IMG/VR virus record: IMGVR_UViG_3300028589_000055
Location: 1 to 21,245 of that record
Origin: a virus
Strand: one strand, 5' to 3'
Length of the DNA: 21,245 nucleotides
Part shown: positions 11,092-15,095 of the stretch, piece by piece
Layout: each line of letters begins with the position of its first letter
How positions within the stretch are numbered: the first letter of the stretch is position 1
Position numbers and translations under genes: made by a program
The notes under the pieces: model-generated
The model's input: the letters and a program-made list of their open reading frames with translations, nothing else
The model's database searches: none
What the model was told of the DNA's origin: nothing

Positions 11092-11685
11092 CTATGTAAA
11101 TGCTTTAGCGGCGTCCAGAGCAAGGAATCTGCAAACTGTGATACCGTCAACGGAGTGTTCGTCAAGATCCTTGATAGAGATCCCCTCCCCCTCAATGATG
11201 TTATCATCATCCATGATAAATTGACGAATTAATTCTTTATCGGTTTTATATTGCCCAACAGGGCACACCGCTTTCTTTGCCTTACCTGGAGAGACTTCAA
11301 CGAACTGTAAAGTCCGTCTATGTTTATAACAGGTATCGTCCAAGTACTTCATGGCCGTTACCAGTGTCCGGTAGGTGCTGATATTCAGGTGAGAGAACGG
11401 AGCCTCACATCCTACGATATCAGGATCGTACTCTTCTAAGATTTCTGCAAGGCGTTCATTAACAACCAGCAGACGTGCGTCAAGGTTGCCTCTGTTCGCT
11501 GCAACCCCCGCGTGCTTGTTATAAGCCGACTTGTCGGCAGTAACAGTTTCAGCAAAGATTACAGTTGATACACCTGTACGGAGATCGTGGTCTATGATTG
11601 TAAACCCGACCGTATTGGTGCCGTTGTCGATACCGAGAATCCGATATATCCAATGGCCACTGAATCCTGGCTTAAGCTCGAACAT
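11092..11685 (-). CDS. RuvC-like Holliday-junction resolvase
   Basis: A 197-residue protein of RuvC size with the full set of acidic/His positions: ILGIDNGTNTVGF (D20), DIVGCEAPF (E94) and DEHSVDGI (H177 and D180, matching the His-x-x-Asp pair of Thermus RuvC). SPGKAKKAV in the middle matches the RuvC P-x-x-[VK]K region. RuvC enzymes cut four-way DNA junctions as dimers; in jumbo phages such an enzyme would resolve branched replication products before packaging. The start at 11685 has no adjacent Shine-Dalgarno. Instead an AGGAG lies 29 bases upstream, beyond a stable hairpin (see 11686-11719). It sits in a leftward cluster of virion-type genes, 36 bases after the 294-residue gene. Confidence 0.85.
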   Translation of the reverse strand: MFELKPGFSGHWIYRILGIDNGTNTVGFTIIDHDLRTGVSTVIFAETVTADKSAYNKHAGVAANRGNLDARLLVVNERLAEILEEYDPDIVGCEAPFSHLNISTYRTLVTAMKYLDDTCYKHRRTLQFVEVSPGKAKKAVCPVGQYKTDKELIRQFIMDDDNIIEGEGISIKDLDEHSVDGITVCRFLALDAAKAFT

Positions 11686-11719
11686 AGCTGGTAGGCGCTA
11701 CCGAAGTAGCGCCACTCCT
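11686..11719 (-). promoter_or_regulatory. Split ribosome-binding site bridged by a UUCG hairpin
   Basis: On the minus strand, AGGAG (11719-11715) is followed by T, then GGCGCTAC (11713-11706), TTCG (11705-11702), GTAGCGCC (11701-11694), then TACCAGCT and ATG (11685). The stem is eight perfect pairs closed by the very stable C(UUCG)G loop. Unfolded, the Shine-Dalgarno is 29 bases from the ATG; folded, the effective distance is nine bases, which is normal. Phage T4 gene 25 is a known case of such hairpin-bridged initiation. Confidence 0.7.
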
Positions 11720-11721
11720 GT

Positions 11722-12606
11722 TTAAACGGACTCGCCGATCGTTTCAAGGGTAGGGATCGACTGCGTGCCGAGCATCGGGATTTGGTTACCGACGTCGAAT
11801 TGCAGAGTCAATTCCTGTTCGTTGTAGTACAACGCCTTGTGGTCAGCTGCGAACGCGTAGATTTGAGTACCGATCGCTTCGTTGAACTGGGTAGTACCCG
11901 AAGTGGTCTGTACGGTAACGGTGCGGTCGGCGGCTGTGCAGAGTGCGAACTCCGACATGATCGCGTATTCCTCGTCACCACCATACAAGATCTTGGACAC
12001 GTTGACGTACTCTTGCACGTCAGTTGTGGACAGGACAACTGGCAGCAAGGCAGATACAGCCAGCTTGACGTCAGTGGTGGTGGCAGCGCCGGTGGAAGGC
12101 AGCTGGATCGGTTCTGGGTACAGGTTCGAGGTGTTAGGCACGAACACGACTTCAGTAACGATACCGTCTTCGGTAGTGATCTTCTTCATCACTACAGTCA
12201 CGTCATCCTGGCTGACGTGAATACGCAGACCGAAGTAAGCGTAGTAGTTGACGCCGTCAACCAACATCTCTACACGCAGAGCGTACTTGTCGCGGATGGA
12301 CTTTGGAAAGTCGTCATCCACAGGACGCATTGCCATTGGCATTGGGTTGTAGAGCGAAGCGTTGTCGGCGTAGTGGTCCAAGATCGAAGTCTTGGCAATA
12401 CCGTTGTTACCGATCGACGCGGTGTGACCTTTGTTACCGGCCATGAGGATGCAGAGCTTCACACGCTCAGTGGCGGTAGGACGGGCGTTCTCTTGAACCT
12501 CGAGACGTTCGTTCATGGTGGACTTGGCATCGATCACTGGGTTCTGACCGAGCAACAGCGACACCAGAAGTTTCGCACCGTAAACCGTGGCTTGTACCGT
12601 ATTCAT
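11722..12606 (-). CDS. Probable virion protein, function unknown
   Basis: A 294-residue, mostly beta-predicted protein without membrane segments or catalytic motifs (for example VDGVNYYAYFGLRIHVSQDD in the middle). ATG 12606 has AAGGGA about six bases upstream. It follows the 325-residue repeated-domain protein by nine bases and precedes the RuvC-like gene, so it belongs to the same leftward operon. Its placement beside portal-adjacent genes suggests a tail or baseplate protein, but it does not clearly carry the repeated domain of its upstream neighbours. Confidence 0.65.
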   Translation of the reverse strand: MNTVQATVYGAKLLVSLLLGQNPVIDAKSTMNERLEVQENARPTATERVKLCILMAGNKGHTASIGNNGIAKTSILDHYADNASLYNPMPMAMRPVDDDFPKSIRDKYALRVEMLVDGVNYYAYFGLRIHVSQDDVTVVMKKITTEDGIVTEVVFVPNTSNLYPEPIQLPSTGAATTTDVKLAVSALLPVVLSTTDVQEYVNVSKILYGGDEEYAIMSEFALCTAADRTVTVQTTSGTTQFNEAIGTQIYAFAADHKALYYNEQELTLQFDVGNQIPMLGTQSIPTLETIGESV

Positions 12607-12615
12607 AATTGTCCC

Positions 12616-13593
12616 TTAACGAGAGAAGAGTGGTGGGGTGGATGCGTGGTTAAACGGCAGGTTACCGGGAACCTTGCTGTCGGAATAACGGTACGCAATC
12701 TTGAGGACACCCGTGATGTTGTTACACCATTTGCTCAGATCGAGACAGAACACGTAATTGTACGCTGGATCTTTCACAGTGTGCGCTACGCTCACGAAGC
12801 CGTTGTAGATCACTTCAGAGCCGTGGACGTTGAAAGGTAGTGTCTGATCAGGCACGGACACCCATTCATCGCCAGTGAGCCTACGGAGTAGCTGAGGCAG
12901 CTTCTCGAGATCACTCCACACGAAACCGGTTGGGAACGTGTACAGCCACGATTCAGCAGCCCGACGATCGTCATGAGACATGTAAGCGTCAGACAACTTC
13001 AGCTCACCTTCTTCCAGAATCATGTCAACTGGAGGCAAGCCTTGGTTACTGTCGCTATAGAACTGACGGATGTTCAGCAGCGAATCAATCGTTGCACCCA
13101 GCAGCGTCAGAGACTGACGCGTGATAACCTTGAAGCTACCAACGAAGATCAGGTGGTCGCCTGAGATCGTTACCAGGTATTCGCTGTTCTGAAGTGCTGG
13201 CAGTGGATCAGGAACTGGGACTTCACCCGGTGGGATCAGATCAATCGTGATCAACTCAGGTTCCAGCTTCAGGCCGTACTGTTCGTACAGAGCGGCATTG
13301 ATAGCCTCAGCTGTAAGTTCAGGAACGTGAACTGCCAGTGGCTCGTTGTTCAGGAGTTGACCGATATCAACCCGACGATACAACAGGCGCTGGACTTCTT
13401 CGCTCCAACCATTAGTCGAGGCGAACTTGATATCAACCGCCGTCAGATTCTCCTCACCTTCATGAGTGGGGAGACCGAACTGTAGCTGCTCAGGTTTCAG
13501 CAGACGGTTGTTTGTAGCGTTGATATAATCGACCAGCAAGTCTTTTGAGTTCTTGCTGTATCGAGATATCCGGGGTTTCTTAATCGTTTCCAT
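12616..13593 (-). CDS. Virion-type protein with two copies of a repeated domain (paralogue A)
   Basis: A 325-residue protein. The frame is open from 13626, but ATG 13593 (METIKKPRIS) has GAGAGGTG just upstream, while the longer start would overlap the preceding gene. Residues about 30-155 share an order of motifs with the next two genes: YRRVDIGQLL (72-81), PELTAEAINAAL (91-102), a GL..EPEL turn and NSEYLVTISG (136-145). A second copy seems to cover about 160-270, ending HGSEVIYNGFVSV (257-269). By its place in the cluster beside the portal gene it is probably a tail or baseplate component. The start lies 15 bases beyond the stop of the 169-residue gene. Confidence 0.65.
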   Translation of the reverse strand: METIKKPRISRYSKNSKDLLVDYINATNNRLLKPEQLQFGLPTHEGEENLTAVDIKFASTNGWSEEVQRLLYRRVDIGQLLNNEPLAVHVPELTAEAINAALYEQYGLKLEPELITIDLIPPGEVPVPDPLPALQNSEYLVTISGDHLIFVGSFKVITRQSLTLLGATIDSLLNIRQFYSDSNQGLPPVDMILEEGELKLSDAYMSHDDRRAAESWLYTFPTGFVWSDLEKLPQLLRRLTGDEWVSVPDQTLPFNVHGSEVIYNGFVSVAHTVKDPAYNYVFCLDLSKWCNNITGVLKIAYRYSDSKVPGNLPFNHASTPPLFSR

Positions 13594-13607
13594 AATCACC
13601 TCTCGCC

Positions 13608-14117
13608 CTAAAATGCAGGCGGCCACAATCCGTCAAGTACATTGTTCGAGAAAGCGTCAGAGAGAAGGATCGTAGTCCCAGGCTCTCCCAGCGTTACTGT
13701 CGTTTCACCAACCCATCTCAACGAATTCGGCTTGGCCTTGAGAGTAAAGCTGCTGCCCTGTACGAGCGCATTCTCAAAGTCCATATCCGTAATCACCAAA
13801 CCTGAGGCCAGCGCGATGTTGTTCATCACACCCTTCACCGTAATAGGTGGCGTCAGATCCAGACTCATACCACCGAAGACGTCCGCTACGTGCAATCTAT
13901 TGTAGCGGTACGTCATCTGACCTGTATGCTGTCTGTAGATGTTTTCATCTATAGACTCATGCGTGGTGATCACCACGTTGGTCACGGCACCTTCAACAAT
14001 CATCGGAGGACCGATGCTTGCGAACTCTGCTCTCAGGTGGAGATTGAAATGGTTATTGGCCATGATCAGTAACGCCACGGCAGGATCGAACTTCAATAAC
14101 CGTAGCGTGTCAGTCAT
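13608..14117 (-). CDS. Virion-type protein with one copy of the repeated domain (paralogue B)
   Basis: A 169-residue protein that looks like a single unit of the domain in its neighbours: IGPPMIVEGAVTNVVI (35-50), RYNRLHVADVFGG (71-83), PPITVKGVMNNIAL (90-103), SGLVITDMDF (105-114) and NSLRWVGETTVTL (131-143). The last matches SYRWVGEVDCVIA in the 319-residue neighbour. ATG 14117 has only a weak upstream CGGGT, 18 bases after the stop of the 319-residue gene, so translation may be coupled. Probably a structural protein; the exact place in the virion is unknown. Confidence 0.65.
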   Translation of the reverse strand: MTDTLRLLKFDPAVALLIMANNHFNLHLRAEFASIGPPMIVEGAVTNVVITTHESIDENIYRQHTGQMTYRYNRLHVADVFGGMSLDLTPPITVKGVMNNIALASGLVITDMDFENALVQGSSFTLKAKPNSLRWVGETTVTLGEPGTTILLSDAFSNNVLDGLWPPAF

Positions 14118-14135
14118 GGGGTTACCCGTTAGGTC

Positions 14136-15095
14136 TTAAGATGTCCGAGTGTATTCAACCAAGATGGCGCCGCAGTAAGCCAACGAGTTGTTAGCGAACG
14201 TCACTGGGAAGGAAGCTTTAGCTCCTACCGCAAGCGTAGGCATCGCAGTTGGCTTGATGTCGGCTGCTGTTATCGCACATCCCATTTGCGTCGAAAGTAA
14301 CGCAGCGAGTTGTGTCATGTTCGCATAGCCAGGTCCACCGAACTTAACAGGGCGTCTGAAGGTCAATGGCCACGATCTGCGACCGTAGTAAACCGTCAGT
14401 GCCCCGATGTAAGGAACGCCGTTGAACGTCAACAGGAGAGCTGTGTTGTCACCAGCATCCTGAGGCCCATTCTCGCTAACTTGCGAGATGGTGAACATGT
14501 TCGATTGAATCGGAGTGTTCAGTGACGCAGCATTCATCAAGTTCAGGTGCATCGCAATCTGATTCTTGATGTTAAGGCTAATGAACGCATCGGTGTGAGA
14601 CAACGTCAGCGTATTAACCAGAATGCGGCCAGCGATCTCAAGACCAAGGCGGGCAATCACGCAATCAACTTCACCTACCCATCGATAGGAGTCAGCAGCT
14701 GCGATAACCGAAGCTGTACCCAATTGGGTAAAGGTATCATCGATGAAGTCTGTCTCACCGATTGGAACCTTGAACGGCCAGAAGAGATTACCCATCAAGT
14801 CCTTAGGAGTTGCTGGAACTTCAGCCGCTACAGACAGATCCACCCCAGACAAGAACGCAGGGAGGTTGATCCGTTGGTATTCGAACGTGAATGAACCGTC
14901 ACGATCCCACAGACTAACCGGAGCCCTGCTCTTGTCGATAGACACCTTAACGCTGGTATTGACACCACCGAGAGAGACCGGCTTTTCTATCTTCAGGTAT
15001 GTAGCTTTGAGGGGAGCTTTTAACTTCTCCCCGATTTGAGCCCTCAACGCATCGAGTGGATGCATCTTCAAGAGTGTTTCTGGTGCAATGCTCAT
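14136..15095 (-). CDS. Virion-type protein with two copies of the repeated domain (paralogue C)
   Basis: A 319-residue protein. Copy one covers about 12-150 (FEYQRINLPAFLSG at 71-84, VPATPKDLMGNLF at 93-105, DSYRWVGEVDCVIA at 135-148); copy two covers about 163-315 (TFRRPVKFGGPGYANM at 245-260, TQLAALLSTQMGCAITAADI at 261-280, NNSLAYCGAILVEY at 302-315). Each copy starts with a helix and a set of beta strands, then the [YF]xR segment, a helix and the NS/DS-x-x-x-x-G strand. AAGGA about seven bases before ATG 15095 overlaps the stop of the 742-residue gene, so translation is probably coupled. Role: probable tail or baseplate part, inferred from position. Confidence 0.65.
   Translation of the reverse strand: MSIAPETLLKMHPLDALRAQIGEKLKAPLKATYLKIEKPVSLGGVNTSVKVSIDKSRAPVSLWDRDGSFTFEYQRINLPAFLSGVDLSVAAEVPATPKDLMGNLFWPFKVPIGETDFIDDTFTQLGTASVIAAADSYRWVGEVDCVIARLGLEIAGRILVNTLTLSHTDAFISLNIKNQIAMHLNLMNAASLNTPIQSNMFTISQVSENGPQDAGDNTALLLTFNGVPYIGALTVYYGRRSWPLTFRRPVKFGGPGYANMTQLAALLSTQMGCAITAADIKPTAMPTLAVGAKASFPVTFANNSLAYCGAILVEYTRTS

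Follow-up and report, generated by a model that had tools for sequence, protein, structure and literature searches.

The split ribosome-binding site of bacteriophage T4 gene 25 was reportedly studied by Nivinskas (1999) and by Malys and Nivinskas (2009). According to the excerpted text of a review, a hairpin between the strong Shine-Dalgarno (SD) sequence and the AUG of gene 25 cuts their spacing from 27 to 11 nt, a structure in gene 38 cuts it from 22 to 5 nt, and initiation at both genes is lower when the structure is destabilised (PMC3014915). In the same excerpts, these are the two T4 genes named as having a hairpin-bridged split ribosome-binding site, and the gene 25 layout is described as present in close T-even phages and absent from more distant relatives (PMC3014915). 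For thrS of Escherichia coli, the part of a further paper available to us reports that the ribosome accommodates a long leader hairpin without unfolding it (PMC3936740). Our literature searches found no open-licence paper joining jumbo phage, Shine-Dalgarno and RuvC, and none joining jumbo phage, transcription terminator, hairpin and phiKZ. Judging from comparative sequence evidence, the site described here, upstream of a phage ruvC gene, matches those of T4 genes 25 and 38 as a further example in a different phage group.

The window, that is, the whole stretch of 21,245 bases that was analysed, derives from the IMG/VR record IMGVR_UViG_3300028589_000055. The ORF at 11685-11092 was identified as RuvC (PF02075, E 7.8e-08; phrog_159, E 1.7e-17). 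Its upstream neighbour belongs to the DUF7208 family, some homologues of which are annotated as virion structural protein in named jumbo phages. The junction between the two genes comprises the following features.

12606-11722, minus strand: DUF7208 gene (PF23838, phrog_3315), upstream neighbour of ruvC, from family matches
11724-11722, minus strand: TAA stop of DUF7208, read in the sequence
11719-11715, minus strand: distal SD, AGGAG, from the sequence and its pairing energy to the 16S 3' end
11714, minus strand: single U between AGGAG and the hairpin, read in the sequence
11713-11694, minus strand: bridging hairpin of 20 nt (8-bp stem and UUCG loop), from the fold and the paired stems in relatives
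11713-11706, minus strand: 5' arm of the hairpin, GGCGCUAC, read in the sequence
11705-11702, minus strand: hairpin loop, UUCG, read in the sequence
11701-11694, minus strand: 3' arm of the hairpin, GUAGCGCC, read in the sequence
11693-11686, minus strand: 8-nt linker from the helix to the AUG, UACCAGCU, without an SD, from the sequence and pairing energy
11685-11683, minus strand: AUG of ruvC, read in the sequence
11685-11092, minus strand: ORF of the RuvC-family resolvase, 197 aa, from PF02075 and phrog_159

Along the minus strand, the order reads TAA, AC, AGGAG, U, hairpin, 8 nt, ATG. The first-pass annotation had described a strong AGGAG 29 bases upstream of the start and directly behind the preceding stop, an 8-bp hairpin with a UUCG loop between them and an effective spacing of nine bases, and all of these were seen on the minus strand: AGGAG and AUG are 29 nt apart in the unfolded state and 9 nt apart with the 20-nt hairpin folded. 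It had also claimed that no usable SD adjoins this AUG, which agrees with the energies of pairing with the 16S 3' end, −3.1 kcal/mol for the strongest proximal site vs −7.9 kcal/mol for the distal AGGAG. A UAG in the ruvC frame lies inside the 3' arm, and inspection by eye found no ATG, GTG or TTG from there to the AUG. Elsewhere in the window, three adjoining genes on the minus strand (12616-15095) all have matches to DUF7941 and phrog_1037, which could reflect tandem duplication of a virion protein gene.

We consider it probable (roughly 0.84) that these elements form a split ribosome-binding site bridged by a hairpin before ruvC. As far as the excerpted accounts go, the likeness to T4 gene 25 lies in a distant strong SD with a hairpin between it and the start codon (spacing cut from 27 to 11 nt in gene 25 and from 29 to 9 nt in the window), whereas gene 38 is a different gene from a different phage group with a shorter effective spacing of 5 nt. 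The thrS site, in the text available, is likewise a split ribosome-binding site in which a folded hairpin is tolerated; however, a long single-stranded upstream region is essential there, whereas a short hairpin parts the SD from the AUG here.

The predicted folding energy of the window hairpin was −13.5 to −15.7 kcal/mol, varying with the ends taken. The 26-nt hairpin had a z score of −4.30, with 1 of 200 shuffles folding equally well, and a 51-nt stretch had a z score of −2.26 (6 of 200 shuffles as good); in the 101-nt context, z was only −0.87 and 39 of 200 shuffles were as good. A stem of at least 8 bp at an allowed place arose in 11 of 1000 shuffles of the stretch, and the stem required in each of the split rows arose in 3-74 of 1000. 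Taken alone, the window hairpin is unusual, only modestly beyond chance and not decisive. Since the 101-nt context did not stand out, relatives were needed, and it is conservation that decides. A search of the window against Rfam returned nothing at the gathering score. CUUCGG hairpins in T4 have been the subject of older work. In the window, CUUCGG occurs 20 times vs 11.04 in shuffles, with 5 of 100 shuffles reaching 20, and in five relatives it is about as frequent as the same pattern reversed. On these counts, the loop sequence was set aside.

A DNA-level search of named phages gave no match; therefore, intermediate relatives were taken from IMG/VR via the DUF7208 and RuvC proteins. The resulting clade consists of 18 contigs, all from IMG/VR, namely the window and 17 close ones recovered by these searches. 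Relatives of the window reach 267,467 bases and are thus jumbo phages, and homologues of its DUF7208 protein, all at < 60% identity, occur in 255 phage records, some of them from phiKZ-type jumbo phages. In the RuvC tree, 11 clade rows (near-duplicates left out) formed one clade against nine outgroup rows, with support of 100/99.

The order SD, hairpin, ATG precedes ruvC in 15 of the 18 clade contigs. Five near relatives of the window, with RuvC identities of 95-100%, share an identical 32-base stretch from AGGAG into the linker, with flanks that differ in three of them. Four further stem lineages (L025/L128; L026-L028 with L029; L030-L032; L043/L138) show the same order with different stems, and the clade therefore holds five distinct stem sequences, of 8, 9, 10, 10 and 8 bp. 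Since these stems share no alignable sequence, pairs were counted row by row, with stem ends set by hand, rather than by a covariation programme on an alignment. By this count, ten clade rows contained no unpaired stem position, and two to four pair types occurred at each of the eight outer stem positions among five representatives. On a finer scale, one A-U stem pair in L129 is changed to G-U in L132, and the hairpins of L133-L135 vary in the loop only. The first-pass annotation had proposed comparing this intergenic region among related phages; the stem sequences differ while pairing is kept in all five stems, and its likening of the site to T4 gene 25 gains support from relatives that keep the pairing, the upstream SD and the helix-to-ATG distance. 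Beyond that likeness, the phage group and the gene are different, and five paired stems in one clade and a second gene, discussed below, set the present case apart from gene 25, which in the excerpted review has reporter and DMS evidence behind it, whereas the ruvC site is predicted from sequence comparison.

An SD next to the ATG or a lost stem in relatives, which had been named beforehand as counting against such a site, was found in 2 of the 18 contigs (L136 and L137); both are without this hairpin and have an SD-like AAGGGG near the ATG. L137 has another hairpin, of 6 bp, that holds its SD. Within the clade, the RuvC tree places L030-L032 as the earliest branch and L137 with the remaining rows (83/83); if this order, of modest support, holds, the state of L136 and L137 would be a loss of the hairpin. 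The DUF7208 tree leaves the branching order within the clade open. L139 (L033/L139) keeps a 10-bp hairpin and an 8-nt linker, but the SD before its hairpin is poor, and a GGGAGG is contained in the 5' arm and loop. The 3' arm of the L128 hairpin has a predicted anti-SD pairing of −10.4 kcal/mol, nearly as strong as the −11.9 kcal/mol of the distal SD, and ruvC of L128 could be translated with the hairpin unfolded.

Across nine split rows, GGAG and ATG are 29-37 nt apart unfolded and 7-10 nt apart folded. For comparison, four relatives (G002, G006, G007 and G009) contain 329 starts with a GGAG no more than 20 nt away, and in 286 of these the distance is 5-9 nt (mode 6-7); this set of starts was chosen so as to favour a near SD. 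The distance from helix to ATG is 7-9 nt in ten clade rows. In the clade rows, the upstream stop lies 6-21 nt from the helix and a variable 35-56 nt from the ATG. Across these sequences, the conserved distance is that from helix to ATG, which would be the one relevant to initiation.

A split-like site was found at none of 27 outgroup ruvC loci, including two distant ones from a bacterial genome search, when any in-frame start was tested. Proximal pairing in ten outgroup rows was −4.0 to −11.9 kcal/mol; in four of these (L060, L061, L063 and L079), a distal site had a small advantage over the proximal one, and no hairpin of this kind lay in between. Among named phages, the 17 regions examined (from 116 RuvC-match and 255 DUF7208-match records) held no split ruvC by the same rule. 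This absence from the outgroups resembles the absence of the gene 25 layout from distant relatives in the excerpted T4 review. In the locus of Serratia phage Moabite (L081), a terminator is annotated at 1457-1484 between the upstream gene and ruvC. Similar UUCG hairpins followed by T-rich sequence occur in L081 and L067, neither of which is split-like.

A genome scan that required an SD, a perfectly paired stem, a gap of 5-11 nt and then a start codon, under a rule set after the ruvC sites were known, placed ruvC at the top in G002, G006, G007 and G009 (1743, 2135, 2064 and 1071 starts tested, respectively), narrowly so in G009 (14.5 vs 14.0). In the window, ruvC was the sole match, and in G013 (L139), the scan did not find the ruvC site. 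Over all starts, the split-like layout was not enriched, with seen/expected counts of 6/9.6 in G002, 9/9.1 in G006 and 7/12.7 in G007; the counts were 6/5.2 in G009, 2/1.4 in G013 and 1/0.3 in the window. With totals no higher than background and rules drawn up with ruvC already in view, the scan ranks ruvC but does not show an enrichment.

The second-best scan site in G007 belongs to the gene for the terminase large subunit, terL (phrog_2). Fifty-two terL loci were fetched, L185 was dropped since its start was missing, and 8 of the 51 assessed are split (L140-L145, L161 and L182). One terL stem pair is G-C in L140 and A-U in L161, a compensated change, and L144 has a different stem. In 40 of the 43 non-split loci, the script rule finds an SD no more than 17 nt from the ATG, and in many of them a hairpin was seen by eye before this near SD; the orthologues in G002 and G006 also have the hairpin first and then the SD. 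Upstream of terL in L146-L160 and L190, a motif TATG[CT][CT]G was seen by eye after the hairpin and before the SD. The ATG of this motif is in the terL frame without a stop in L147, L148, L151 and L190, is separated from terL by a TGA in L150, and in others is the start of a very short ORF.

Three things are seen directly: how the elements are laid out, a predicted fold that is stable, and its retention by paired stems of different sequence. In the mechanism that we propose for them, the 30S subunit would pair with AGGAG just past the DUF7208 stop in a DUF7208-ruvC transcript, and the hairpin, kept folded, would remove 20-28 nt from the spacer. The AUG would then lie 7-10 nt from the GGAG core, near the 5-9 nt typical of GGAG-bearing starts in these genomes. 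The ribosome would presumably accept the folded hairpin, unfolding would be expected to lower ruvC translation, and the hairpin would probably set a steady level rather than act as a switch. As for its origin, a hairpin stands just past about a quarter of the stops in these genomes, and near starts the SD mostly follows the hairpin; in ruvC, as in the terL of certain relatives, the SD may have come to lie 5' of the hairpin.

The hairpin might instead be an ordinary post-stop element that serves 3' protection of the DUF7208 message, processing or termination, its place between AGGAG and the ATG being incidental. In four relatives, a stable hairpin follows 250 of 1054 ORF stops vs 23 of 1054 mid-gene points, which suggests an element that the clade uses routinely at 3' ends or for processing; the ruvC hairpin, 6-21 nt past the stop, is within the reach used in that count. 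However, the fixed distance is to the ATG and not to the stop, and the 7-9-nt linkers of ten clade rows contain no T run. Moreover, six gene sets, that of the window among them, yielded 153 genes with a hairpin at most 45 nt upstream; the SD follows the hairpin in 99 of these, whereas ruvC has no SD in that position. An SD at least 5 nt before the hairpin with none after it was found in 8 of the 153, comprising four ruvC (including those of the window and of G002, which is close to it), one terL and three others, under rules that missed the ruvC of G009. We regard a purely post-stop role as unlikely, and it can coexist with a split site in the same hairpin. An intrinsic terminator was rejected, as the stem in the window is followed by UACCAGCU and not by a U run. 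The 250 post-stop hairpins, drawn from loci L007-L019 and L084-L118, carry TATG[CT] on the 3' side in 139 cases (rough chance 1%-2%) and [GA]CATA on the 5' side in 118, and have a T5 run within 25 nt in 51.

Ribosomes finishing DUF7208 could also reinitiate at ruvC, with AGGAG and the hairpin merely holding or slowing them. This would fit the position of the SD, close behind the stop in the window and overlapping with it in L128, and several named phages have ruvC adjoining or overlapping the annotated gene before it. The geometry of SD, helix and ATG is nevertheless constant while the stop-to-ATG distance varies (35-56 nt), and in L129/L132 the helix lies 20-21 nt past the stop; we find reinitiation quite unlikely as the explanation. 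The annotation had further suggested a switch operated by temperature or by a protein, and neither form was favoured by the comparisons. The thrS leader of E. coli is autoregulated. The T4 DNA-metabolism proteins gp43 and gp32, in the excerpts consulted, are translational repressors of their own genes that act at RNA operators lying upstream (PMC3014915), and RuvC itself could be imagined in such a role. However, no loop or stem sequence is common to the lineages, and a sequence-specific protein operator was rejected on this ground; a protein may recognise the hairpin shape alone. An RNA thermometer was rejected as well: the SD lies outside the helix, and the predicted energy of the window hairpin is still −13.2 kcal/mol when heated to 45°C and −7.3 kcal/mol at 65°C, with no melting near growth temperature, the hairpins as a group keeping −6.3 to −12.7 kcal/mol at 65°C. 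A regulated switch of either kind is, in our estimate, very unlikely. A chance inverted repeat would be compatible with the shuffling result for the 101-nt context (39 of 200 as good) and with the background level of split-like sites genome-wide, but is strongly disfavoured by the same layout before the same gene with different paired sequences in five stem lineages, and we give it almost no credence.

A broader and decidedly tentative idea, which we think possible but doubtful, is that split sites are born from the general post-stop hairpin, the SD moving to its 5' side and a start codon forming on its 3' side, so that a single hairpin would both terminate or protect the message before it and control access to the following gene. 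If so, transcripts ending at the hairpin would carry the SD without ruvC or terL, and the level of the downstream gene would depend on how often transcription reads through the hairpin. In the terL loci, the transition between the two orders would then be visible.

The hairpin-bridged split site, our preferred reading of the ruvC locus, calls for caution with gene finders that score SD distance without structure, and its natural stem variants offer tests of how well the 30S subunit copes with a helix between SD and start codon. The occurrence of this layout in another phage group, with different paired stems and at a second gene, suggests that bridging a distant SD with a hairpin is a selected and repeatable solution.
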